From Kitasatospora sp. MMS16-BH015 (lineage in GTDB: Bacteria > Actinomycetota > Actinomycetes > Streptomycetales > Streptomycetaceae), in assembly GCF_002943525.1 (NCBI RefSeq), contig NZ_CP025394.1, positions 4,588,001 through 4,652,000 on the forward strand: DNA of 64,000 nt. Reading direction: 5' to 3'. Positions 15,191-47,325 of this stretch are shown piece by piece. The stretch's first letter is position 1, and each line of letters begins with the position of its first letter. The notes under the pieces were generated by a model. It was not told where the DNA came from, made no database searches, and was given only the letters and a program-made list of their open reading frames with translations. The position numbers and the translations under genes are program-made.

Positions 15191-16381
15191 ATGAAATCCG
15201 TGCTCGTCCTGTCCTGGATAGCCATCGGCAACGTGCCCGCAGCGGTCCGGGAGATCCGCGCCCGCGGCCTTCGACCGGTGCTGGTCTCCAACCTGCCGGC
15301 GGACCCGAATGCCGGGCTCTGCGAGGACCACGTGGTCTTCGACTGGGACGGCGAGGAGCTGCCGGCCTTGCTCGCGCGGATCGAGGAGCGCGGGATCACA
15401 CCGATCGCGGTGGTCAGCATGGTCGAGAAGCTGATCGAGTGGAGCATCGCGCTCACCACGCACTACGACCTGCCGGGCGGCGGCCCGGCCCGGCAGGTGC
15501 TGGTCAGCAAGTACGCCGTCCGGGAGCACCTGCGGGCGACGGGGCGTTCGGCGATCAGGTTCACGGGTGACCCGCTGGCGGTGGACTTCTTCCCCGCCAT
15601 CCTCAAGCCCGCGCGGGAGTCCTCGGCCTCCTACCTGGTCAAGCGGGTGGACGACCGCGAGGAACTGCTGGCCCATCTGGCCGACTTGGAGCGGGCCGGC
15701 AAGGGCGGGGTGGAGCTGATCGCCGAGGAGTTCCTGGACGGGGTCGAGTTCTCGGTGGACGGCCCCGTGCTCGGCGGCCGCTTCCACCCGCTGCTCGCGG
15801 TGGAGAAGCCCGACCACGACGACCTGCGCCACCACGACGCCGGCCTGGAACTGCACCCGCCGCAGCGGGAGTTCGTCCGCGCGGGCGTCCGGGAGCTCAG
15901 TGAGGTGGTGAGCGGGCTCTGCGCCGACCGCGGCCTGGACCAGGTCTGGCTGCACTTCGAGGGCCGCAGCACGGCGGCGGGCCGCACCGAGCTGATCGAG
16001 ATCAACCTGCGGGCCGGGGGCGGGCAGATCCCGCACGTGCTCGGCGAGTTGTACGGCATCGACGTGTACGCGGTGATCGTCGCGATGGCGCTGGGCGAGT
16101 ACACGCCGGAGCAGGTGCCCGCACCGCGCGAGCGGCCGATGCTCGGCTGGTTCGACGTGGAGGCCAAGGAGGTCGGCACGGTCGAGGTGGCCACCACCGA
16201 GGCGGAGCTGCTCGCCCTGCCCGGGGTGCTCGACGTCAATCTGGCCCACGGCTACCGGGTCACCCGGCTGGACCAGGAGAACTTCTTCCTCTCCTTCACG
16301 ATGGCCGCCGACTCGGTGGACCAGCTGCGCGAGCACGCGGCCCGGGTGCTGGACACCCTGGAGTACGCGGTCCGGCCGTAG
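15191..16381 (+). CDS. ATP-grasp carboxylate-amine ligase
   Basis: 396 residues. The N-terminal pre-ATP-grasp domain (MKSVLVLSW...RPVLVSNLP) is followed by ATP-grasp strands FPAILKPARESSASYLVK (ATP-binding Lys) and IAEEFLDGVEFSVD. The Mg/ATP site is ELIEINLRAGGG, and the C-terminal region resembles amino-acid ligases of natural-product pathways. It would join a carboxylate, as acyl phosphate, to an amine. It is separate from the carrier-protein ligase at 29261 and is therefore a candidate for peptide or amide bond formation without the NRPS. ATG follows GGAGGTCACGTC. Confidence 0.82.
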   Translation: MKSVLVLSWIAIGNVPAAVREIRARGLRPVLVSNLPADPNAGLCEDHVVFDWDGEELPALLARIEERGITPIAVVSMVEKLIEWSIALTTHYDLPGGGPARQVLVSKYAVREHLRATGRSAIRFTGDPLAVDFFPAILKPARESSASYLVKRVDDREELLAHLADLERAGKGGVELIAEEFLDGVEFSVDGPVLGGRFHPLLAVEKPDHDDLRHHDAGLELHPPQREFVRAGVRELSEVVSGLCADRGLDQVWLHFEGRSTAAGRTELIEINLRAGGGQIPHVLGELYGIDVYAVIVAMALGEYTPEQVPAPRERPMLGWFDVEAKEVGTVEVATTEAELLALPGVLDVNLAHGYRVTRLDQENFFLSFTMAADSVDQLREHAARVLDTLEYAVRP

Positions 16382-18708: not shown

Positions 18709-19250
18709 GCCAGGCCCCTCGTGGTCAGGAAGGCGTGCAGTGCGGCGGCGGATTCGGCCACCGACTGCCGCTGGGTCTCGATGCGCAGGTCCGGGTGCTC
18801 GGGTGCCTGGTACGGGTCGTCCACGCCGGTCAGGTGGGCGATCTCGCCGGCGGCCTGCTTGGCGTACAGGCCCTTGACGTCCCGCTCGGAGCAGACCTCG
18901 ACCGGGGTGGCGACGTGGATCTCCAGGAAGTCGGTGCCGGCCTTGTCGTGCTGCTCGCGGACGGCGGCGCGGGAGGTGGCGTAGGGGGCGATCACCGGGG
19001 CGAGCACCTTGACGCCGTGCGAGGCGAGCTTCTGGGCGACGAAGCCGATCCGGGTCACGTTGGTGTGCCGGTCCTCCTCGGTGAAGCCCAGGCCCTTGGA
19101 GAGGAACTCGCGGATCTCGTCGCCGTCCAGCACCTCCACCTGGTGGCCCTCGGCGCGCAGCCGCTCGGCCAGGGCGAGGGCCAGCGTGGTCTTGCCCGCG
19201 CTGGGCAGCCCGGTCAGCCACACGGTGGCGCCGCGTTCGGTGGCGCTCAT
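18705..19250 (-). CDS. cysC: adenylylsulfate kinase
   Basis: A 181-residue APS kinase: Walker A TGLPSAGKTT, LDGDEIREFL, RIGFVAQKLASHGV and VKGLYAKQAAGEIAHLTG. It makes PAPS, the donor for sulfotransferases. It is translationally coupled to cysD downstream and to the LysZ-like kinase upstream (overlaps of 4 bp), which ties PAPS supply directly to the carrier-protein pathway operon. Confidence 0.93.
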   Translation of the reverse strand: MSATERGATVWLTGLPSAGKTTLALALAERLRAEGHQVEVLDGDEIREFLSKGLGFTEEDRHTNVTRIGFVAQKLASHGVKVLAPVIAPYATSRAAVREQHDKAGTDFLEIHVATPVEVCSERDVKGLYAKQAAGEIAHLTGVDDPYQAPEHPDLRIETQRQSVAESAAALHAFLTTRGLA

Positions 19251-20092
19251 GCCGGCACCGCCGCAGCCTCGGCCAGGTGCACGGTGGTGCCGGCCCCGGC
19301 CAGGGCCGCGCTGACCGGGCGCTCGGTGCGGCCGTCGGCGATCCGTACGGTGGGGACCCCGCCGGCCAGCGCCTCGCGGGCGGCGATCAGCTTGAGCGCC
19401 ATGCCGCCGGTGGCGGAGGGGTCGGGGGCGCCGGTAGCGGCGATCCGCAGGCCGGCGCGGAGGCTGGCCGGGTCGGCCGGGTCGGCCAGCACGCCGGGGG
19501 CGCCGGTGAGCAGCAGCAGCTGCTCGGCGCCGAGGGCGGCGGCCAGCGCGGCGGCGGCCCGGTCGGCGTCCACGTTGACCGGGCGGTCGTGTTCGTCGAT
19601 GGCCGGCGGGGAGACCACCGGCACGAAGCCGGCCGCCAGCAGGGCCTGCGGCAGGGTGGGGTCGACGGTGGTGATCCGGCCGCTCTGGTTGTCCCGGACC
19701 AGCACGGTGCGGCCCTCGACCACGGCCCGGACGGCCGCCTTGCGGCGGGCTCGCAGCAGGCCGCCGTCCAGGCCGGTCAGGCCGACGGCGGGCACCCGGT
19801 GGCGGGCCAGCTCGGCCACCAGCCGGGGCTTGACCGCCCCGGCCAGGGCGAGCACGACCACCTCGAGGGTCTCGGGGTCGGTGTAGCGGGTGGAGACGCC
19901 GTCGGGGGCGGTCAGGGTGCGGTGCGGGACGCCGAGCCGGCCGCCCAGGCGGGCGATCTCGCCGGAGCCGCCGTGCACCAGGAGGACGGAGTGGCCCTGG
20001 TGGACCAGGCCGGCCAGGTCGGCGCAGATGCCTGCGGCGTCGACGGCGGGGTTGCCGCCGACCTTGACGACGGTCAGGGGTTGGGTGGTCAC
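19247..20092 (-). CDS. lysZ: LysZ/ArgB-type kinase acting on carrier-bound glutamate or aminoadipate
   Basis: A 281-residue amino-acid kinase: VVKVGGNP at the N-terminus, VLLVHGGSGEIARLG, TGLDGGLLRARR, and VNVDADRAAAALA. It would phosphorylate the side-chain carboxylate of the amino acid attached to the amino-group carrier protein. Its neighbours (LysY-type reductase upstream, carrier protein, LysX and LysK) favour this over N-acetylglutamate kinase. GTG 20092 is chosen because the first beta strand follows. It overlaps cysC by 4 bp. Confidence 0.85.
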   Translation of the reverse strand: MTTQPLTVVKVGGNPAVDAAGICADLAGLVHQGHSVLLVHGGSGEIARLGGRLGVPHRTLTAPDGVSTRYTDPETLEVVVLALAGAVKPRLVAELARHRVPAVGLTGLDGGLLRARRKAAVRAVVEGRTVLVRDNQSGRITTVDPTLPQALLAAGFVPVVSPPAIDEHDRPVNVDADRAAAALAAALGAEQLLLLTGAPGVLADPADPASLRAGLRIAATGAPDPSATGGMALKLIAAREALAGGVPTVRIADGRTERPVSAALAGAGTTVHLAEAAAVPA

Positions 20093-20115
20093 GCTCTCTC
20101 CGGTTCGGCCGGGGG

Positions 20116-21144
20116 CTACAGCGGGTGGAGGCCGGGGAAGGTCAGGCCGAGGTGCTCGGGCAGGCCCATCCGGACGTTGAGGCACTGCACGGCGTTGCCG
20201 GCCCCGCCCTTGACCAGGTTGTCCAGGGCGCCGATGGTGGTCAGCCGGCCCTGCTCCTCGTCCACGGCGAAGCCCACGTCGCAGAAGTTCGACCCCAGCA
20301 GGATCTTCGGGTCGGGGTAGCGGTGGATGCCGCGCTGGTGCGCGACCACCCGGACGAAGGGCTCGTCCGCGTACTGCACCCGGAAGGCCCGGCGCACCGC
20401 CTTGCTGTCCACGCCGGGGCGCAGCGTGGCGTGGCAGAGCGTCTGGGCGCCGCGCACGGCCTCGACCCCGGTGGCGGTCATCGCGGTGGGCAGGCCCAGG
20501 TGGCGGGCGATCTCGGCCTCGTGCCGGTGCCGGGTGGGGGCGAAGACCCGCATGGCGCCGCTGCGTTCGGCGTGCAGGTTGGCCGGGCCCGCGGTGGCCC
20601 CCGAGCCGCTGGAGCCGGTCCGGGCGTCGACCTGGGCACCCCGGTCAAGGTCGATCAGGTCGTGCGCCACCAGCGGGTGGAGGGCGAGCACGGCGGCGGT
20701 GGCCATGCAGCCGGGCACGCTGATCAGGTCGGCGGTGCGCAGCCGCTCCCGGTAGAGCTCCGGCAGGCCGGGCACGAAGGCCTCCAGCAGCTTGGGGGCG
20801 AGGTGGTCCTCGCCGTAGTACTGCCGGAAGACCTCGGGATCGGCCAGCCGGAAGTCGCCGGTCAGGTCGAGCACCACGCCGGCCCGGTCGCGCCACTGCT
20901 CGATCTGGGTCATCGCCACCCGGTGCGGCAGGGCCAGGAAGACGGCGTCGCTCTCCGGCACCTCCTCGGCCGAGCAGAAGGCCAGGTCGGTGACGGAGCG
21001 CAGGTTCGGGTGCACCCCGTCGATCCGCTTTCCGGGGAAGCGCGAGGAGACCGCGCCCACCAGCTCGAACTCGGGGTGCCCCAGCAGCAGCCGCAGCAGC
21101 TCCCCGCCGATGTAGCCGGCCGCGCCGACCACGCTCACTCGCAC
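20116..21144 (-). CDS. lysY: LysY/ArgC-type reductase of carrier-bound acyl phosphate
   Basis: 342 residues. NADPH-binding VVGAAGYIGGELLRLLLGHP lies at the N-terminus. The catalytic Cys is in SVPGCMATAAVLALHPL, followed by the TGSSGSGATAG loop and HRHEAEI. It would reduce the acyl phosphate made by the adjacent LysZ-type kinase to the semialdehyde while the substrate stays on the carrier protein. GTG 21144 is chosen because GGAGG lies 5 nt upstream; a TTG at 21156 is the alternative. Confidence 0.87.
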   Translation of the reverse strand: MRVSVVGAAGYIGGELLRLLLGHPEFELVGAVSSRFPGKRIDGVHPNLRSVTDLAFCSAEEVPESDAVFLALPHRVAMTQIEQWRDRAGVVLDLTGDFRLADPEVFRQYYGEDHLAPKLLEAFVPGLPELYRERLRTADLISVPGCMATAAVLALHPLVAHDLIDLDRGAQVDARTGSSGSGATAGPANLHAERSGAMRVFAPTRHRHEAEIARHLGLPTAMTATGVEAVRGAQTLCHATLRPGVDSKAVRRAFRVQYADEPFVRVVAHQRGIHRYPDPKILLGSNFCDVGFAVDEEQGRLTTIGALDNLVKGGAGNAVQCLNVRMGLPEHLGLTFPGLHPL

Positions 21145-21186: not shown

Positions 21187-23085
21187 TCAGCCGGCGTGGT
21201 CGGCGGCCAGGATGCCGAAGTTGCGGCGGGCGATCGACACGGCGAGGTCCTGCACGGCGTAGGCCGAGACGTAGTAGCCGTGCGGCGCGATGTCGGGGGT
21301 GAGGGTCAGCGTGAAGACGGCCTCGCCGGTGCCGTCGGCGCCGATCTTGACCTTCCGCAGGTCCGGCACGATGCTGCAGCCGGAGCGCCCGTAGCTGGCG
21401 AAGAACAGGCCGAGCCGCAGGATGCCGGGGCGGGCCTCGCGCACGGCCACCCGGACCTCGTTGGTGGTGCCCTGGCGGGCGCCGTCCTCGGCGTGGACGA
21501 GCAGCGAGGGGGAGTCGGGCAGCCGGAAGGCCACGTCGCCGCAGCGGGTGCAGACGATGCCCTCGGTGTCGAGCACGGTGGGCACCAGGGCGTTGCGCCG
21601 GTACCGCTCGGCGGGCCGGCCGCACTGGCAGCGCACGTGGGCGAGGCTGGCCAGGTCGATCCGGCTGCGCTCGCCGAAGTAGCCGAAGCAGTTGCTGAGT
21701 TCGTTCTCCGGGTCCTTGACGAACTGGGTGGCGATGGCCATGTCCAGCGACTGGAGGTCGTCCAGCAGGCCGCGGATCACCGGGGTGCGGTCCTGGTTCA
21801 CCGCGAGGTCGCGGCGGGAGACCTGGCCCTCCACCTTGGTGGCGAGCTTGCCCAGGCGGGCGCGGAGCGGGTTGTTGGGGGAGAGCGCCCCGCCGGCCAG
21901 GTAGGCGGTGAGCCGGGCCGAGGTGGTGAGCAGCAGTTGCTCCGGCTCGACGGTGGGCAGTGCGGGCACGGCGCCGGAGTCCTCGGCCAGGCCGAACTGC
22001 ACGTAGGCGGGGTAGGGCTCGGAGGTGCAGATGCTCGTGTTGAGCGCGGTCACGGAGGCGGTGCCGGTGAGCGCGGCCTCCGTCCAGACGAGGTTCTCCG
22101 GGCGGGTGGAGCCGTGCACGGTGATCGCGCCGACCACGTTGCGGGCGGTGCCGTCGATCGCGTTCAGCATCAGCTGGTACTTGGGGTCGTAGACCGTGGC
22201 GTCGGCGAACGGGCTGTTGTTGCAGGAGCTCAGCACCACCTCGGCGGTGCGGATCTCGCGCAGCTGGATGAGCTTGTCCACCGGCTTGTAGCAGGTGGAG
22301 GTGGCGCAGATCGGGGCGACCATCTCGAGGTTGCGGCCGACCGTCTCGTTCAGGCCGCAGATGGTGTAGTCGGCGAGGTTGAGCGAGTCGTCCTTGCCGT
22401 GGCCCTGGAGCATCAGCCGGCGCCAACGGGTGCCGAGGATCTCGGACCTGACGTCCACCGACTCCAGCTCGGCCTCGTTGCGCAGGTGGACGCCGCTGCG
22501 GGTGAAGCCGCGGTCCACGGCCGTGAAGAGGCCGAACTCCTCGACGTCATCGGCGGGTTCGAGGTACTGCTTGGCGGTGAACCAGGCCAGCGAGGCGGCG
22601 TCCCGGCCGGTCAGGAAGACCAGCTTCAGCTCGGGGCGGGTGCCGGCGGCGCGCACCAGCGGCCAGATCAGGTCCACCGTGAAGTGCTCGTAGAGGCCGG
22701 CGATCACCAGCGAGACGGGCTGCCCGCCGGCGGCCGGGGCGAGGCGCTCCAGCAGGGCGGGGGCGAGCTCGGCCTCGTCCAGCCACTCGGCCGCGCAGGG
22801 GGTGATCAGCGCGCGCAGGCCGGCCGGCAGGGTCTGCGGGGCGAGCAGCACGCCGTGGGTGCGGGGGGCGGGACGGCGGACCGCTCCGTACACCTCGGCC
22901 GCGCGCTCGGCGGAGGCGGCCAGGTCGGTGCGGCCGCCGGTCCAGACCGGGACGGCGGTGGGCGCCTCGGCGGCGAGGAAGGCGTCGACGGCGGCGGTGT
23001 ACGAGCCCGCGTCGTCGAGGACCGAGAACGGCGAGGTCATCAGGGTGGCCGTCCCGGCGCCGGGACCGTGGGGCTCGGACTGCAT
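21187..23085 (-). CDS. caspase/CHAT-like protein with C-terminal zinc ribbon, function unknown
   Basis: A 632-residue soluble protein that I cannot name. Residues 222-240 (LMLQGHGKDDSLNLADY) and 280-290 (AEVVLSSCNNS) resemble the His-Gly and strand-Cys elements of clan CD peptidases (caspase/CHAT type), giving a predicted H229/C288 dyad. A zinc ribbon follows at C486, C488, C512 and C515 (RCQCGR, VCTRCG), and a C-terminal beta domain after that. It lies between the carrier protein and its reductase in the same operon. The start is ATG 23085 with AAAGGAG upstream. It might process or recognise the carrier protein, or it may be a non-peptidase scaffold. Confidence 0.6.
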   Translation of the reverse strand: MQSEPHGPGAGTATLMTSPFSVLDDAGSYTAAVDAFLAAEAPTAVPVWTGGRTDLAASAERAAEVYGAVRRPAPRTHGVLLAPQTLPAGLRALITPCAAEWLDEAELAPALLERLAPAAGGQPVSLVIAGLYEHFTVDLIWPLVRAAGTRPELKLVFLTGRDAASLAWFTAKQYLEPADDVEEFGLFTAVDRGFTRSGVHLRNEAELESVDVRSEILGTRWRRLMLQGHGKDDSLNLADYTICGLNETVGRNLEMVAPICATSTCYKPVDKLIQLREIRTAEVVLSSCNNSPFADATVYDPKYQLMLNAIDGTARNVVGAITVHGSTRPENLVWTEAALTGTASVTALNTSICTSEPYPAYVQFGLAEDSGAVPALPTVEPEQLLLTTSARLTAYLAGGALSPNNPLRARLGKLATKVEGQVSRRDLAVNQDRTPVIRGLLDDLQSLDMAIATQFVKDPENELSNCFGYFGERSRIDLASLAHVRCQCGRPAERYRRNALVPTVLDTEGIVCTRCGDVAFRLPDSPSLLVHAEDGARQGTTNEVRVAVREARPGILRLGLFFASYGRSGCSIVPDLRKVKIGADGTGEAVFTLTLTPDIAPHGYYVSAYAVQDLAVSIARRNFGILAADHAG

Positions 23086-23194: not shown

Positions 23195-23374
23195 CTACTC
23201 GCCCCAGTCCTCCTCGACCTCGGGGGCGAGGGCGAGCACGGTCGGGTCGAGGGCGACGATCTCCAGCTCGCTGCGGCAGCCGCCGCACTCGACGATCTCG
23301 TTGAGCCGGGCGGAGGCGCCGATGGAGACCGGCTCCTCGCACTCCGGGCAGGGCTGAGCGGTCAGCGTGGTCAC
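23195..23374 (-). CDS. lysW: LysW-type amino-group carrier protein (AmCP)
   Basis: A 59-residue protein. It has a zinc-ribbon N-terminus with CPEC at residues 9-12 and CGGC at 30-33, an acidic body, and the diagnostic C-terminal EDWGE. The terminal Glu gamma-carboxylate takes the amino group of the substrate, protecting and carrying it through the pathway. Lysine and arginine routes of Thermus and archaea use such proteins. In actinomycetes they serve secondary metabolism such as vazabitide A. GTG 23374 overlaps the stop of the transketolase C-terminal subunit gene by 4 bp. Confidence 0.93.
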   Translation of the reverse strand: MTTLTAQPCPECEEPVSIGASARLNEIVECGGCRSELEIVALDPTVLALAPEVEEDWGE

Positions 23375-26519: not shown

Positions 26520-27563
26520 TCACAGCCGGGCCGCCACGGCGCCGACGGCGTCGACCGCCCGGGTGTAGGCGGCGCGCAGCAGGGTGGTGTGGCGCGCGAG
26601 GTCGGGGGTGGCGGCGCGCGGGTCACCGAGCCCGTGCGCGCCGGTGAACCGGAGCCCGGTCCAGGCGTGCGCCACCGTCTCCACCGCGCGGCCGGCCGCG
26701 GCCAGCGCCGGGTCGCCCCACCGGTGGCCGCAGCGGCGCAGCAGCTCGCCGTGGAGCGAGGCCTGGGCCTGCATGGCCCAGCCGAACGGGTAGAGCTCGC
26801 GCAGCGCGGCGGCCTCGCCGGCCCCGGCGCGGGCCAGCAGCTCGGCGGCGAACAGGTCGAAGCCGGGCAGGCCGGTGCGGTGCGGGCCGGCCGTGGTGAA
26901 CAGCTCGGCGTCGGCGCGCAGGAAGCGGCCCAGCCGCCCGGGGGTGAGCGGCTCCGGCACGGACTCCAGCCGCACGTCCAGGCAGCGCCGGCCGATCCGG
27001 GAGTCGCTGAAGAAGGCGTCCTGGACGTCGGTCGGGTTCTCCGAGCCCCAGCTGGCCAGGAACTTCTCGATCGGGACGGCCCCCCGGAAGCCGGGCGGCA
27101 TCGCGTCCGAGACGTAGACCAGGCCGCGCAGCTCGTCCAGCCCGTAGACCAGCACCTGGTGGGCGGCGTGCACGTCCCCGTAGGCGGGGCGGAAGGGCAG
27201 GTGGAAGTTGTCCACGGCGGCGATCACCGGCCGGTCCTCGGCCAGCGCGGCGCGCACCTCGCGCCAGAGGTCCTGCTCGTCGGCCGGCTGCCACCAGCGC
27301 GCGCGCAGCGCGTGGTGCGGGGCCAGCGCGGCGCCCAGGTCCACCCGGCCGTCGGCGTCCGGCAGGCACGGGTAGTAGAACTCCTCGTGCCGCACCTCGC
27401 CGGGCAGGTGCAGGAACCGCCAGCCCGCGCCGAGCACCTCCAGCGGATCGGCGCCGCCGCGCAGCAGCACCGAGGCGGTGGTGGACTGCAGGCAGCTGAT
27501 CAGGTCGCGGTACCAGAGCTCGGGTTCCGGGCCCTTCAGCGTGTACGAGCGCTTGGCCGTCAT
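26520..27563 (-). CDS. BtrH_N-like protein, candidate AziU3-type aziridine-forming subunit
   Basis: 347 residues, no signal or membrane segment. The N-terminal half resembles the papain-like BtrH N-terminal fold: [22 protein letters not shown] supplies an early Cys, [13 protein letters not shown] and [15 protein letters not shown] supply His, and [13 protein letters not shown] follows. The C-terminal half is helical. It directly follows a 194-residue gene (1-bp gap) and precedes the aminotransferase. In azinomycin biosynthesis AziU3 with AziU2 closes the aziridine by sulfate elimination. The pairing and PAPS/sulfotransferase context suggest the same job, but I could not align the proteins. 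Confidence 0.55.
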
Positions 27564-29260: not shown

Positions 29261-30142
29261 GTGTCAGCGACGCCCGAGCGCCCAGACGCCAGCAGGATCG
29301 CCGTGCTCGCCAGCCGGGTCGGCGCGGACGAGAAGCGGCTGTTCGACGCCTTCGACCGGCGCGGCGTCCCCTTCGAGCACCTCGACCCGCGCCGGCTCTG
29401 GTTCCCGGCCGGGCAGCGCGAGCTGCCCTGGGGCCTCGCGCTGAACCGGGAGATCGGCCAGACCCGGGCGGCCTACGCGGCCCGCTGCCTGGCCGCCGCC
29501 GGGGTCGAGGTGCTCAACAGCGTGACCGCGACCGAGGTCTGCGGCGACAAGTGGCTCACCACCCAGGCCCTGGAGGCCGCCCGGGTGCCGACCCCGCGCA
29601 CCGCGCTGGGCCTCACCCCGGAGGCCGCGCTGGCCGCGCTGGACGAATCCATCGGCTACCCGGCGCTGATCAAGCCGCTGGTCGGCTCCTGGGGCCGGCT
29701 GGTCGTCCAACTCCCCGACCGGGCGGCGGCCGAGGCCGTGCTGGAGTACGCCGGCGCGCTCACCGGCCCGCAGTCGCACCTGGGTTACGTGCAGGAGCTG
29801 ATCGACAAACCCGACCGGGACATCCGGGTGATCGTGGTCGGCGGGCAGGTGGTCGGCGCGATCTACCGCACTGGCGAGGGCCTGCGCACCAACGTGGCCC
29901 TCGGCGGCAGGGCGCTGCCCTGCGAGGTGACCCCGGAGATCGAGAAGCTCTCCCTCGAGGCCGCCGCCGCCGTCGGCGCGGACATCGCCGGGGTCGACCT
30001 GATCGAGGCCGGCGACGGCCGGCTGCTGGTGCTGGAGGTCAACCACCGGGTGGAGTTCTCCGGCTTCCAGGCCGCCCTCGGCGACCGGGTCAGCGTCGCC
30101 GACCACATCCTCGACCACCTCCTGGAACGGGCAGCGCGATGA
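29261..30142 (+). CDS. lysX: LysX-type ligase that loads the amino-group carrier protein
   Basis: A 293-residue RimK/LysX-family ATP-grasp enzyme: CGDKWLTTQALEAARVPTPR, YPALIKPLVGSWGRLV, YVQELIDKPDRDIRVIVVGG, and LEVNHRVEFSGFQ at the metal/ATP site. It forms the isopeptide bond between the carrier protein's terminal Glu and the amino group of glutamate or aminoadipate. GTG 29261 follows CCGGAGGTCAC. It overlaps the LysK-type hydrolase by 4 bp. Confidence 0.9.
   Translation: MSATPERPDASRIAVLASRVGADEKRLFDAFDRRGVPFEHLDPRRLWFPAGQRELPWGLALNREIGQTRAAYAARCLAAAGVEVLNSVTATEVCGDKWLTTQALEAARVPTPRTALGLTPEAALAALDESIGYPALIKPLVGSWGRLVVQLPDRAAAEAVLEYAGALTGPQSHLGYVQELIDKPDRDIRVIVVGGQVVGAIYRTGEGLRTNVALGGRALPCEVTPEIEKLSLEAAAAVGADIAGVDLIEAGDGRLLVLEVNHRVEFSGFQAALGDRVSVADHILDHLLERAAR

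Positions 30143-31425: not shown

Positions 31426-31429
<4 letters not shown>
31340..31429 (+). CDS. mini-gene 2, 29-residue peptide
   Basis: Near copy of mini-gene 1 ([12 protein letters not shown] start, same [11 protein letters not shown] end). It differs at three residues plus several silent sites. GTG 31340 overlaps the previous stop, and its own stop overlaps the NRPS GTG at 31426. Frame and both overlaps are kept in the copy, so translation can run by re-initiation from lysK to the NRPS. Confidence 0.45.
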
Positions 31430-35451
<4,022 letters not shown>

Positions 35452-42088: not shown

Positions 42089-43102
42089 TCACGGCCCGGA
42101 CGGCCTGACCTCCGCGATCAGGTCCCGGCGGGCCTCGGCCACGCGCGCCCGGGTGAGCTCCGGAGTCTCCCCCTCGACCACCACGTAGGCGCGGTGGGAG
42201 CGCCGGTCGCCGACCGGGGCGACCGGGTCGCCGGCCCGGTACGGGAAGCGCGCGCCGCACACCCACGGGCTGACGGCGATCTCCTCGGTGCCGGTGTAGG
42301 TCTCCAACCGGCCCTCGGGCAGCAGGAAGAAGCCGACCTCCGCGTACCGCTCGGCCGGCCCCACCACCGGCCGGCTGCCGAGCAGCCCGGCGAAGAGCGC
42401 CCGCTCCGGGTCGCAGCCGCGGGCGATCTCGATCAGCAGCGGGATGCGGTCGCCGGCCGGCTGCGCCCGGCAGGAGACCACCCGGGGCCCCAGCGGCAGC
42501 AGGGCCACCTGGCTGTGGGCCGGCCCGGACCGGTACCCGCTGGCGGTCAGCAGCTGCTTGACCGCCGCCGTGACCTGTCGGGCCGTCCGCTCGGGCAGCG
42601 GGGCCGGGTGGAGATGGCCCGTCAGGTGGAAGTCCGGTGCCCCGGTGGTGCGTTGGGCGGTCAGGCCGATCAGGTGGTGGGTGCCGTCCACCGTCAGGGT
42701 CTGCACGCTGACCCGGGGGGCCTCGGCGGGGGCCGCGACCGCCTCGCAGCCGCGCAGCCGCTCGTGCACCTGCGGCGGGTTCGGGGTCAGCCCCAGCCGC
42801 CAGGCCTCCCGGGCGACCGGCAGCACCGAGCTGCCGTGCCCGCAGTGCAGCACCACGTCCAGGTCGTGGGTGCGTGCCGTCCGCGCGATCAGGGCGCGCA
42901 GCGCGTCCTCGTCACCGAAGTCGGCGAGCAGCAGCTCCTCGGAGAACTCCTCGAGCAGCGGCCGGAAGTCCTCGTCGAGCAGCGCGGGATCCCAGAGCGA
43001 CCAGATCCGGAAACCCAGTTCGGTTCCCTTGCGCACCAGTTGATGGCTCGGCATCACCAGCAGCAATCTGAACTGCGAGCTTCTCTCGGAGTGTGCACGC
43101 AT
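42089..43102 (-). CDS. ATP-grasp-like protein with degenerate active site
   Basis: 337 residues. The order of elements follows biotin-carboxylase-like ATP-grasp ligases: an N-terminal domain (LLLVMPSHQLVRKGTELGF), NPPQVHERLRGCEA where a Lys usually follows NPP-x, HLIGLTAQRTTGAPDFHLTG, and a late block LLPLGPRVVSCRAQPAGDRI, corresponding to the HVE-type and N-R-GGD metal site. Several catalytic residues, including the N-R-GGD acids and Asn, appear changed. It may be a ligase with altered chemistry or a non-catalytic homologue. ATG 43102 follows GTGGGGGTC. Confidence 0.6.
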   Translation of the reverse strand: MRAHSERSSQFRLLLVMPSHQLVRKGTELGFRIWSLWDPALLDEDFRPLLEEFSEELLLADFGDEDALRALIARTARTHDLDVVLHCGHGSSVLPVAREAWRLGLTPNPPQVHERLRGCEAVAAPAEAPRVSVQTLTVDGTHHLIGLTAQRTTGAPDFHLTGHLHPAPLPERTARQVTAAVKQLLTASGYRSGPAHSQVALLPLGPRVVSCRAQPAGDRIPLLIEIARGCDPERALFAGLLGSRPVVGPAERYAEVGFFLLPEGRLETYTGTEEIAVSPWVCGARFPYRAGDPVAPVGDRRSHRAYVVVEGETPELTRARVAEARRDLIAEVRPSGP

Positions 43103-43142
43103 GACCCCCACTGTGCACAGCCCGGTTCCCGCGCCGTTCCCC

Positions 43143-44524: not shown

Positions 44525-45253
44525 TCAGCTGGCTGGTGCCGGGGCGGTGGGCCGCCCCGGGGCGTGCACGGCCGCGGCCCGGGCGCCGCGGACCAGGCTC
44601 TCGCCGCTGCGCACGGCCAGCGGCGACCGGGGGCCGCGTACCGCGACCGCCCCCACGTACGGGGCGGGCAGCGGCAGGTCCCGGAGGGTGTACTCCGCCG
44701 GACGGCCGAGTTCGGCGGGGAGGGTGAGCGGGGTCGTGCCGTCCAGTTCGATCCGCCCGGGGTGCACGGCCAGGCCCTGTCCGCCGGTCTTGAGCAGGGC
44801 CTCCTTGCGGGTCCAGCGCCGGGCGAAGTCCGGGTAGTCGCGGCATTCGGCCAGCTCCCGGGCGCAGAGGCCGGAGAGCGCGGCGGCCGACGGGGCCGGG
44901 GCGGCGGTGGCGTCCTCCACGTCCACCCCGACCGGGTGGTCCGCGACGGCGAGCACCGCGAGCCCGCCCACGTGCGAGAGCGAGAACTCCGGCCGGGGGC
45001 CGGCCGTGGCCAGCACCGGCTTGCCGTGCGCCGGGTCCGCGCAGTGCGCGCAGGCTCGGTCGAAGCGCAGCTCGGCCGGGCTCAGGCCGAGCCGCTCGCC
45101 GAGCACCAGGCGGGTCAGCACCCAGGCGGCGAGGAAGCGGTGCCGGTCCGCCGGGAGGGCGATCCGCTGCCGACGGCTGCGCTCGGGCCCGTCGAGCAGC
45201 CCGGCGAGCGACTCGGGCACCCGGTCGACACCGACGTACCAGACCTCGGCCAT
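44525..45253 (-). CDS. Sfp-type 4'-phosphopantetheinyl transferase
   Basis: 242 residues. The signatures are HPVGVDVEDAT (Mg ligands) and FARRWTRKEALLKTGGQGL. It transfers phosphopantetheine from CoA to carrier-protein serines, here the NRPS PCP and perhaps the stand-alone ACP encoded upstream. The C-terminus carries an extra Ala/Pro tail. A hairpin separates it from the ACP gene. Confidence 0.92.
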   Translation of the reverse strand: MAEVWYVGVDRVPESLAGLLDGPERSRRQRIALPADRHRFLAAWVLTRLVLGERLGLSPAELRFDRACAHCADPAHGKPVLATAGPRPEFSLSHVGGLAVLAVADHPVGVDVEDATAAPAPSAAALSGLCARELAECRDYPDFARRWTRKEALLKTGGQGLAVHPGRIELDGTTPLTLPAELGRPAEYTLRDLPLPAPYVGAVAVRGPRSPLAVRSGESLVRGARAAAVHAPGRPTAPAPAS

Positions 45254-45327: not shown

Positions 45328-45582
45328 TCAGACCGCCGGGGTGGCCGCAGCCGCCGGGGCGAGGAACTTCTCGTTGATCCGGTCGAGGGTGCGGAAGTCG
45401 TCGATCTTCAGGTTCGCGACGTCGATCCGGTCCCCGGTGAGGTCCTCCAGGAGCGCGACGAACTCGAGGAACGAGACCGAGGCGATGAGCCGCGACTCGA
45501 TCAGATCGGTGTCCCCGGCGACCTCGGTCTCCAGGTCCGGGTGCTTGCTCCGGATCCAGCTGATGATTTCGTCCATGTCCAT
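45328..45582 (-). CDS. stand-alone acyl/aminoacyl carrier protein
   Basis: An 84-residue four-helix carrier protein (MDMDEIISWIRSKHPDLE start). Helix II begins IESRLIASVSFLEFVALLED. The attachment motif DSL is ASV, so the Asp before the serine is lost though the Ser remains. Its neighbour is an aminoacyl:carrier-protein ligase, as in known stand-alone CP/ligase pairs that load glycine or alanine. Modification by the nearby PPTase is expected but the altered motif leaves doubt. Confidence 0.8.
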   Translation of the reverse strand: MDMDEIISWIRSKHPDLETEVAGDTDLIESRLIASVSFLEFVALLEDLTGDRIDVANLKIDDFRTLDRINEKFLAPAAAATPAV

Positions 45583-45601
45583 ACCTTCCTGAAGCCGCCG
45601 G

Positions 45602-46426
45602 CTACGCCGCGGACTGGTGGATCGCGGCGAGCGCGGTGCGCGCGTCGCCGTGCGCCTGGAGCAGCACGTGGACCCAGCGCTCCACACCGAAGGCCAGGCA
45701 GCCGCTGAAGGCGGACTCGCCCTCGAAGGAGATGCCAAGGCGCTCCCCGAAGAAGTTGCGGTGCCGGTTGACCGAGGCGATGGCGGTGCCGTCGGCCGCG
45801 ACGAACTCGTACTTCACCGGGTCCATCTGGTTGAGCAGCGACCGCGAGCCGTCACCGAGGTAGAACGGGTCGGTGGCCGGCTCGTGGCTCACCTTGACCC
45901 CGAGCTCCTCGGCCAGCGCCAGCACGAGCTCGGTGGAGCGGGCCAGGTGCTCCAGCACGCCGTCCCGGCTGCCGACGTACAGGGCCTCCCGCATGTGGAA
46001 GGAGCGGAGCCGGCGCAGGCCGTCGTAGTGGTCCTCGTTCCGGAAGCAGCGGCCGATCGAGGTCACCACCTCCGGGGCCTGAAGGGCGCGCTCGCGCAGG
46101 TGCAGCAGCAGGCCGTAGCAGGTGGCGGTGGGCAGGCAGGTGCCGGTGGAGACCAGGCCCTGCTCGGCGGCGGGCAGCTCGGCCTCGCCCCGGGCCAGCT
46201 CCTCGCGGGCCGGCTCGGTGAGGGTGGCCACCGGGAGGGCGAGGTGCGGGAAGTTGCGGAAGAAGTCGAGGCGGGCCAGCTGCTCCACGGGCAGCAGGGC
46301 CGGGCCGGCCACCGGCCGGGCCCCGAGGGTGGTGGCGATCTGCTGGAACCTCTCCTCGACGGCCGCGAAGAGGGCGGCCTCGTCGGATTCGAGGACCGTG
46401 ATTCCAGGGGCGAGGAACGTCGGCAT
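45602..46426 (-). CDS. amino acid:[carrier protein] ligase (atypical seryl-tRNA synthetase-like)
   Basis: 274 residues, the class II synthetase catalytic core without a tRNA-binding arm: motif 2 region SIGRCFRNEDHYDGLRRLRSFHMRE, likely Zn ligands in GTCLPTATCY and FSGCLAFGVERW, and motif 3 AFGVERWVHVLLQAHG. Family enzymes activate a small amino acid (Gly or Ala) as adenylate and load it on the adjacent carrier protein. It lies 19 bp upstream of the ACP gene on the same strand. The tRNA synthetase role is excluded by size and missing domain. Confidence 0.85.
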   Translation of the reverse strand: MPTFLAPGITVLESDEAALFAAVEERFQQIATTLGARPVAGPALLPVEQLARLDFFRNFPHLALPVATLTEPAREELARGEAELPAAEQGLVSTGTCLPTATCYGLLLHLRERALQAPEVVTSIGRCFRNEDHYDGLRRLRSFHMREALYVGSRDGVLEHLARSTELVLALAEELGVKVSHEPATDPFYLGDGSRSLLNQMDPVKYEFVAADGTAIASVNRHRNFFGERLGISFEGESAFSGCLAFGVERWVHVLLQAHGDARTALAAIHQSAA

Positions 46427-46452
46427 GGGATCTCCCGTCGGGGGCGGAGGCG

Positions 46453-47325
46453 TCAGGCGAACAGGCCGATGCGGCGGTAGAAGTTGACGGTGCGCCGGGT
46501 GATCCGGGCCGTGGCCTCGGCCCGCGCCGGGTCGGCCATCACGGCGGCCCGGAAGCGGCCGGGCTCGGGGATGCCGGCGTCCGCGTAGGCGTCCCGGCTG
46601 CAGAGCATCTGCATGATCAGGTCGATGTAGCCGCGCAGGTACTGCGCGACCTCCTCGACCTCCTCGGCGGTGTGCTTGCGGCGCACCTCGTCGAGCAGCG
46701 CCGAGACCAGCTGGCCGCCGAAGGCGATGTGCCGGGACTCGTCGCGGTGGTGGATCCGGTTGACCGCGCGCACCGTCTCGGGGAGGCTCTCGTCCGAGGC
46801 CATCCGGGCGTTGTAGTGGTCGCCGATCATCTCGAAGATGAGGATCTGGCTGAAGACGATGAAGTTGTTCATCTCCGGCGAGCGCTCCGCCGCCGGGAAG
46901 ACCATCCGGCGGTCCGGGTAGATCCGGCCGGCGTAGCGCAGGCAGAACTCGGCGAAGAACCACATGTGTTCGTTCTCTTCGCCGATGAAGTGGTGGAAGT
47001 ACGGCGTCGGGATCTCGTAGCCCGGCGTGTGGATCCGGCGCATCACCTCGATCAGCAGCTCGCGGATGCCGTGCGCGATCATGCTGTAGAGGTTGACGCT
47101 CTCCCAGCGGGAGAGCTCCAGCAGCTGCTCCGGCGTCAGCTCCCGCTCCATGGCGGTGCCGTGCACGGAGAGCAGGTCACGGCTCATCCACAGGTCGGCG
47201 GGCTCGACCGACTCCGGCCACTCGAAGGTGCGGTAGGGGTTGTAGTAGTCGTCGACGGAGGCATCTATCAGGCGCTGTACGGCCCGAGTGAATTCTTCCG
47301 TCCACTCAATCGTCGACGCTGACAC
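46453..47325 (-). CDS. AurF-like diiron oxygenase
   Basis: A 290-residue all-helical protein with carboxylate/His ligands spaced as in diiron N-oxygenases: RWESVNLYS, GEENEHMWFFAEF (E..H), LIFEMIGDHYNARM (E, H) and HHRDESRHIAFGG (H, DE, H). It might N- or C-oxygenate the amino acid on the adjacent ACP. GTG 47325 is preferred because GCGGAGGTCAC sits just upstream, the same leader as lysX. It is the first gene of the leftward oxygenase-ligase-ACP group and probably the right edge of the cluster. Confidence 0.82.
   Translation of the reverse strand: MSASTIEWTEEFTRAVQRLIDASVDDYYNPYRTFEWPESVEPADLWMSRDLLSVHGTAMERELTPEQLLELSRWESVNLYSMIAHGIRELLIEVMRRIHTPGYEIPTPYFHHFIGEENEHMWFFAEFCLRYAGRIYPDRRMVFPAAERSPEMNNFIVFSQILIFEMIGDHYNARMASDESLPETVRAVNRIHHRDESRHIAFGGQLVSALLDEVRRKHTAEEVEEVAQYLRGYIDLIMQMLCSRDAYADAGIPEPGRFRAAVMADPARAEATARITRRTVNFYRRIGLFA

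Follow-up and report, generated by a model that had tools for sequence, protein, structure and literature searches.

The DNA analysed here, referred to as the window, is a stretch of 64,000 nucleotides from Kitasatospora sp. MMS16-BH015 (NZ_CP025394.1, positions 4,588,001 to 4,652,000). At 45328–47325 it carries a group of three genes (the triad), for which an earlier interpretation made from the letters alone (the sequence-only reading) had proposed that a ligase loads an amino acid onto an acyl carrier protein (ACP) and a diiron enzyme oxidises it there. All three genes were found at this position on the minus strand, each as one unbroken reading frame. They encode a ferritin-like diiron oxygenase (FDO) of the AurF/CmlI type (46453–47325, GTG start, 290 aa; PF11583), an aminoacyl:carrier-protein ligase with a class II seryl-tRNA synthetase (SerRS)-like core (45602–46426, ATG start, 274 aa; PF00587) and a stand-alone carrier protein (45328–45582, ATG start, 84 aa), in which ASV replaces DSL around the attachment serine, Ser35. 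The gene for an Sfp-type phosphopantetheinyl transferase (PPTase; 44525–45253, minus strand), the likely partner of the ACP, follows; its product contained WTRKEALLK and matched PF01648 with 34.2 bits (cut-off 25). The gaps between FDO and ligase, ligase and ACP, and ACP and PPTase were 26, 19 and 74 bases, respectively. FDO, ligase and ACP side by side would correspond to the gene set of the glycine-to-nitronate system that was reportedly described by He and Ryan in 2021 (Nat Chem).

The FDO scored 107.1 bits against PF11583 (AurF; cut-off 29.6). Its AlphaFold2 model, built from an alignment of 34 of the 99 called FDO sequences, had a mean pLDDT of 89.8 and was structurally closest to CmlI (Z 21.5) and AurF (Z 20.6), with ribonucleotide reductase R2 subunits next (17.6); with Foldseek, AurF was the best match (E 2.8e-4). 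Residues E117, H120, E165, E196, H199 and H192 were conserved in 34/34 aligned sequences and E89 in 33/34. The FDO thereby probably has the six metal ligands and, in addition, the seventh His that PMC12154687 describes for N-oxygenases (Dob3). A weak profile alignment (E 0.79) placed H192, E196 and H199 on the motif of AurF, while E89, E117, H120 and E165 were assigned as ligands from spacing and helix geometry only. The FDO shares its Pfam family, predicted fold, likely metal ligands and the extra His with the arylamine N-oxygenases AurF and CmlI, but the identity in structural alignments was 12%, and its expected substrate would be a carrier-bound aliphatic amino acid instead of an aryl amine.

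The ligase matched PF00587 with 36.2 bits (cut-off 29.3) and aligned with the Bradyrhizobium Gly:carrier-protein ligase (4H2W and 3MEY; E 7.5e-18 and 2.3e-17, respectively). It retained Cys, Glu and Cys at the positions aligned with the zinc site of Bll0957, the ligands of which we take to be C131, E176 and C279. The window proteins thus resemble Bll0957 and its carrier (3MEY, 4H2S–4H2Y) in the SerRS-like core and the zinc-site residues, and the ACP model was weakly similar to 4h2u_D (E 0.025). In contrast to Bll0957, the window ligase is shorter, falls below the NCBIfam cut-off and is coupled to a diiron enzyme.

For a comparison across genomes, loci were gathered from the best 80 of 181 related loci and by searching 70 genomes of the genus for the ligase. 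A ligase match at E ≤ 1e-10 was obtained in 42/70 of these genomes; the weaker ones among these matches may lie outside triads. The resulting 100 stretches plus the window contained 94 unique FDO loci after five duplicates were dropped. FDO, ligase and ACP occurred together in 92 of the 94, which bears out the triad as a recurrent unit. The recurrent neighbour families, assigned on representatives, were AcpS, an LCM methyltransferase (PF04072) and a nitronate monooxygenase (NMO; PF03060). The LCM methyltransferase was present in 65 loci, two of which also had an NMO, and an NMO alone was present in 18, so that one or the other was nearby in 83/94. The 11 loci with neither comprised the seven loci of the clade with ASV or ESL carriers and four others, two of which were on short stretches. 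In a quick FDO tree, the ASV/ESL loci formed one clade (SH-aLRT 100) that grouped with the NMO-linked FDOs (100).

We infer that the triad loci represent the published glycine–nitronate system. According to PMC11035981, glycine-derived nitronate is either O-methylated toward enteromycin or denitrified by an NMO, and a diiron oxygenase together with a nitronate O-methyltransferase is treated in PMC9967187. PMC12154687 also refers to the system. The sequence-only reading had presented the triad as a self-contained unit. Novelty of the unit is not supported, as the glycine-to-nitronate chemistry is already described in PMC11035981 and PMC9967187, which cite that work. Nor is self-containment supported, given the methyltransferase or NMO near most of the loci and a candidate methyltransferase approximately 31 kb away in the window. 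The window has in common with the published system the recurrent FDO, ligase and ACP genes, near which an LCM methyltransferase or NMO usually lies. It differs in that neither of these two enzymes was found nearby, in its Sfp-type instead of AcpS-type PPTase, its ASV carrier, its DADH-type host cluster and its PF04672 methyltransferase. The genome of the window also contains a second triad (L035, G000:C1 at about 7.12 Mb), which is of the methyltransferase kind with DSL and AcpS, and one strong NMO, located elsewhere.

The attachment site of the window ACP reads ESRLIASVSFLEF, with ASV at 45475–45483 (codons GCC TCG GTC). The replacement of DSL with retention of the Ser, as the sequence-only reading had it, was confirmed at the codon level and recurred in 8/8 distinct genomes with the triad-bearing DADH-type clusters of this clade (the window, five named Streptomyces, G127 and G386). 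A sequencing error was ruled out as the source of ASV, because the same residues recur in eight genomes with differing Ala codons (GCC in the window, GCG in the five named Streptomyces relatives). Among the 94 unique FDO loci, the motif was DSL in 78, DSM in one, ASV in six and ESL in one (Nonomuraea); it was unread in eight. The attachment Ser was invariant in 34/34 aligned ACPs. In the AlphaFold2 model (pLDDT 79.6), Ser35 opens a helix spanning residues 35–49. The ACP resembled peptidyl carrier proteins by sequence (E 0.0032 as a single sequence, E 2.3e-6 as a profile), and its predicted fold resembled carrier proteins (best E 0.003).

AcpS-type PPTases presumably contact the Asp that precedes the Ser of carriers. 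The premise that this Asp is present in nearly all carrier proteins fails in this genome, because 32 of 70 carrier domains have another residue: D preceded the Ser in 38, H in 17, N in 12 and A, T and G in one each (70 of 73 PF00550 domains, three left out). In the PPTase literature consulted (two papers), nothing was found on this Asp.

Orthologues of the window PPTase were located 3' of the ACP in six relatives (64–66%). Across the 94 loci, an AcpS-type PPTase gene lay within the stretch in 58/65 methyltransferase loci, 8/18 NMO-only loci and 0/11 remaining loci, the AcpS call being based on one representative that passes TIGR00516 (69.7 bits, cut-off 59.8). In the ASV/ESL clade, the Sfp-type PPTase replaces AcpS in 6/7 loci, and the contig of the seventh (L057) stops just past the ACP. 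With looser clustering, an Sfp-type homologue was also found beside DSL or DSM carriers in L082 and in L041, the latter with no FDO in the stretch. Since the loci belong mostly to one clade, the association of ASV with the Sfp-type PPTase is a correlation from few events. In genome G267, an orthologue of the window PPTase (72%) adjoins a DSL-type carrier, which suggests from sequence that this PPTase family accepts both carrier kinds. Together with the frequency of non-Asp carriers in the genome, this leaves the earlier concern that loss of the Asp alone makes pantetheinylation doubtful without support. We read ASV as a tolerated, fixed carrier variant served by the Sfp-type PPTase. The eight ASV carriers form a natural set on which the need of PPTases for the Asp preceding the Ser could be gauged.

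The triad is part of a conserved biosynthetic gene cluster (10985–47325), as seen when its genes were compared one by one with those of six relatives that also carry the triad (S. niger, S. purpureus, S. adustus, Streptomyces sp. PKU-EA00015, G127 and G386). Most of the cluster genes were present in these relatives at 54–89%, and each had the triad with its PPTase, in rearranged gene order. In S. bambusae, the cluster was retained around the triad in the part compared. Family scans covered the window genes at about 8.8–51 kb. A LysW-like amino-group carrier protein (AmCP) with the C-terminus EDWGE (23195–23374, minus strand) was detected in a tblastn search that used its G267 counterpart as the query (76% over 59 aa). 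Its gene sits between a transketolase gene and a gene for a 632-aa protein and is absent from the automatic gene calls. Additionally, the cluster encodes a LysX-type ATP-grasp ligase (29303–30142, plus strand; PF08443, PF22626 and TIGR00768 above its cut-off, scanned from 29261), and a LysZ-type kinase with a LysY/ArgC-type reductase (19247–21138, minus strand; NF010659 with 249.8, cut-off 223, and TIGR01850 with 340.3, cut-off 233.6). With LysK, the LysW/AmCP set of LysW, LysX, LysZ, LysY and LysK is complete. LysX and LysK were slightly under their equivalog cut-offs (TIGR02144 268.3/275.6 and NF003367 353.9/363, respectively) and passed broader models.

The other core genes encode a BtrH_N-type protein (26520–27563, minus strand; PF14399, 92.1 bits) and a nonribosomal peptide synthetase (NRPS) with the domain order C-A-T-TE (31426–35451, plus strand), the C domain of which lacks the second His of HHxxxDG. 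The BtrH_N protein was found at 77–78% in 5/6 relatives searched, with none in the Nonomuraea genome, and the ESL locus of Nonomuraea was not in a LysW/DADH-type cluster within the stretch compared. The A-domain pocket of the NRPS was conserved in the five sequences compared; its code, read by eye at what we take to be the GrsA positions, was D V F D F G G V T and matched no specificity known to us. Further cluster genes encode CysD/N/C, a sulfotransferase, a transketolase pair, a DegT aminotransferase, two acyl-CoA dehydrogenase-like proteins and a SARP regulator. The 632-aa gene and an MFS gene beside the PPTase were in none of the six relatives, just two of which (S. niger and S. adustus) shared the ATP-grasp gene at 15191 with the window. 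The 632-aa protein (21187–23085) had no Pfam or NCBIfam match and was restricted to the window and G267 (80%) among 18 clusters.

As described in PMC9570651, the LysW (AmCP)/DADH clusters of azabicyclohexane compounds such as azinomycin and vazabitide A have LysW/X/Z/Y/K, CysD/N/C, the sulfotransferase and the transketolase pair in common with the window; the likeness is to the published description. The window adds the triad, its PPTase and the PF04672 methyltransferase to this set.

In the 394 genomes of the family, BtrH_N matches were obtained in 30. Nine genomes, including that of the window, had a match of at least 76% identity; an ASV-type FDO was present in four of them and not in the other five, three of which have an FDO of about 50% identity elsewhere. 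Seven related DADH-type clusters contained the triad, and ten others yielded none; the claim of a triad shared among related clusters thus withstands this comparison. In a tree of seven concatenated core proteins, constructed for 17 of 18 clusters (S. bambusae was left out, with too few genes), the window and G267 were sisters (100/100) within the triad-bearing group. Because G267 nests inside this group, the presence and absence of the triad requires two changes on the core tree. No FDO match at E ≤ 1e-20 was found genome-wide in G267, and no triad ligase, ASV carrier or PF04672 methyltransferase within the 60 kb taken. Beside its PPTase, G267 instead encodes an enoyl-CoA hydratase, a ketosynthase, a protein with no Pfam match and the carrier protein, with a reductase slightly further away (a ketosynthase–ACP module). 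As the sister cluster has this module beside the same PPTase, we infer from the sequences that the triad may be an acyl-unit module that is exchangeable for others. The different carrier module at the same spot in a sister cluster indicates that such clusters exchange acyl-unit cassettes. The stretches taken from G216, G139 and G361 yielded neither triad nor PPTase homologues; a full-length ATP-grasp ligase was encoded there (domains scanned in G216 only).

Two genes elsewhere in the cluster accompanied the module. A methyltransferase of the S-adenosylmethionine (SAM)-dependent family PF04672 (13045–13815, minus strand; 247.7 bits) is a candidate O-methyltransferase for the triad product. It was encoded in 8/8 triad-bearing DADH-type clusters and in 0/10 DADH-type clusters without the triad; the compared stretches measured 20 to 78 kb, and absence refers to these stretches. 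Nor was it matched in the Nonomuraea locus L060 or in ten other ligase–ACP loci tested. The second is a relative of ATP-grasp ligases (42089–43066, minus strand) that lacks the central ATP-grasp part and matched LAL_C2 only (43.3 bits; scanned over 42089–43111). This LAL_C2 protein was present at 68–78% in 9/9 clusters with an acyl-carrier module (eight with the triad, and G267), and none at this level was found in the nine other clusters compared. The central part is missing relative to the 422- and 432-aa ligases of G216 and G139. Simple replacement of an intact ligase by the shortened protein was rejected, since the triad clusters also contain intact ATP-grasp genes matching that core. For the same reason, a role of the LAL_C2 protein in thioester-dependent transfer is put forward as a proposal only.

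Computation established the gene content and protein families, the predicted fold, which residues are conserved, that ASV is retained, the co-occurrence of genes and the exchange of modules. On these grounds, we consider it probable that the triad is a glycine N-oxidation cassette that serves as an exchangeable acyl-unit module in a LysW/DADH-type cluster. Priming, substrate, oxidation level, methylation and transfer would then proceed as follows. The adjacent Sfp-type PPTase would prime the ACP. The ligase would adenylate an amino acid, most likely glycine, and load it on the pantetheine arm, where the FDO would act on the amino nitrogen of the tethered glycyl group and bring it to the oxidation level of a nitronate (or an oxime). 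Capping of this product, for instance as an O-methyl nitronate, would most likely fall to the PF04672 methyltransferase, which would stand in for the LCM-type enzyme of the known systems, and the acyl group would be passed to the azabicyclic/DADH amino acid. The sequence-only reading is therefore sustained in part: the unit is recurrent, and the evidence is best read as N-oxygenation of an amino acid on its carrier, in view of the CmlI/AurF fold, the ligands with the seventh His, the Gly:carrier-protein-like ligase and the nitronate-enzyme neighbours; novelty, self-containment and doubtful priming are the parts that found no support.

Several results weigh against this interpretation. A single-sequence search of the PDB with the FDO gave no match at E ≤ 0.001, for which reason the predicted structure was used, and the FDO profile reached AurF only at E 0.79–0.83. 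The ligase scored 100.6 bits against the NCBIfam aminoacyl-ACP ligase model NF005479, below the equivalog cut-off of 357. The ACP had no Pfam family match at E ≤ 0.001, PF00550 included, and its model had no Foldseek match at E ≤ 0.001. Its dN/dS (0.41–0.60) was looser than that of the FDO (0.12–0.24). The second His of the NRPS C domain was gone in 9/9 sequences read (G386 excluded), both in clusters that carry the triad and in clusters that do not. When the window and six relatives (336,740 bases in all) were searched by tblastn, a single LCM query found no LCM methyltransferase, and a single NMO query gave just two fragments of 67 and 44 residues (E 0.13 and 0.41). Neither of the two published nitronate fates is thus encoded near the triad. 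On a single tree, as few as two changes would account for the co-occurrence of PF04672 with the triad. To our knowledge, no product or activity has been assigned to this cluster.

The lack of a nearby LCM methyltransferase or NMO would also fit a third fate, in which the ACP-bound nitronate or nitroacetyl (or oxime) group is transferred uncapped to the azabicyclic amino acid, and the PF04672 protein does something else (regulation, or methylation at another site). The Nonomuraea locus L060 has the triad, PPTase and NRPS with no PF04672 match in its 20.9 kb. The aldoxime of akazaoxime is moreover ascribed to a diiron oxygenase in PMC9967187. We regard this third fate as a real but minority possibility, as the PF04672 gene was found in every compared DADH-type cluster that has the triad and in none of those that lack it, although the two genes lie approximately 1 kb apart in S. 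adustus, 3 kb apart in S. purpureus and as far as 31 kb apart in the window. It is rather unlikely that another amino acid (Ala, Ser or Val) is loaded, or that the FDO performs C–H oxidation or desaturation instead of N-oxygenation. The distance of the ligase from the solved Gly:carrier-protein ligase, its score under the NCBIfam cut-off and the presence of R2lox and stearoyl-ACP desaturase among the structure matches would allow for this, but CmlI and AurF lead those matches, the N-oxygenase His is present in 34/34 sequences, and relatives of the triad lie beside nitronate-processing enzymes. Very improbable is an ASV carrier that escapes pantetheinylation, with the triad decaying or the ACP acting as a non-loading scaffold: Asp to Ala and Leu to Val changes at what is presumably the AcpS contact site and the higher dN/dS of the ACP speak for it, but the Ser is kept in 34/34 aligned ACPs, ASV is fixed in all eight genomes with ligase and FDO retained, dN/dS stays below 1 in all six ACP comparisons, an Sfp-type PPTase gene follows the ACP and non-Asp carriers are frequent in the genome.

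Within the preferred reading of a glycine N-oxidation cassette, the C domain would be the obvious joining enzyme for the transfer step, but the loss of its second His in all nine sequences read weakens it as a candidate. One tentative and rather doubtful proposal is a hybrid product of a PF04672-capped nitronate glycyl unit and an aziridine-type azabicyclic amino acid. The two would be joined, with no working C domain, by the shortened LAL_C2 protein: descended from an ATP-grasp dipeptide ligase but deprived of the ATP-binding core, it would take the acyl group from the carrier thioester. The carrier module (the triad, or ketosynthase–ACP in the sister cluster) would be a plug-in. The analysis names candidates for a second kind of nitronate methyltransferase and for an ATP-free amide-forming enzyme, and it links aziridine-type clusters with a nitrogen-oxidising cassette of a kind already known.

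Three other systems were considered as the closest relative and set aside. The lipothrenin enzyme LitN is AurF-like, but the cluster gene table in PMC10616846 lists no SerRS-like ligase. Valanimycin biosynthesis, with the SerRS paralogue VlmL and a tRNA-dependent transferase (PMC2922099), was dropped, as the window ligase aligns best to a carrier-protein ligase. The Dob3 hydrazone oxidase system (PMC12154687) involves the same family, but neither a lysine N-oxygenase nor a MetRS/cupin protein was among the window genes scanned (about 8.8–51 kb). In the literature on nitronates, azabicyclic compounds and ficellomycin/vazabitide, with most subscription journals outside the scope, no report joining nitronate and azabicyclic chemistry was found. 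The odd carrier, the swapped helper enzymes and the cluster setting look new, while the chemistry itself has already been reported.

Some features of the wider set of loci were also observed. In L035 (G000:C1, approximately 7.11–7.13 Mb) and several of L084–L132, MetK-, PfkB-, MetH-, MetF- and SAHase-like genes follow the triad. These genes, named from reading representative sequences, would form a SAM-recycling set that trails many methyltransferase-type triads. In the NMO-type loci L036–L039, L042, L062 and L065–L068, a stand-alone condensation-domain-like protein (c6, named from reading one sequence) was encoded directly upstream of the FDO. In L040 (9413–12303) and L041 (8186–10599), with no FDO in the stretch compared, a ligase–ACP pair lay beside a PhyH-type dioxygenase (scanned in L040), an arrangement that suggests another carrier-bound oxidation.

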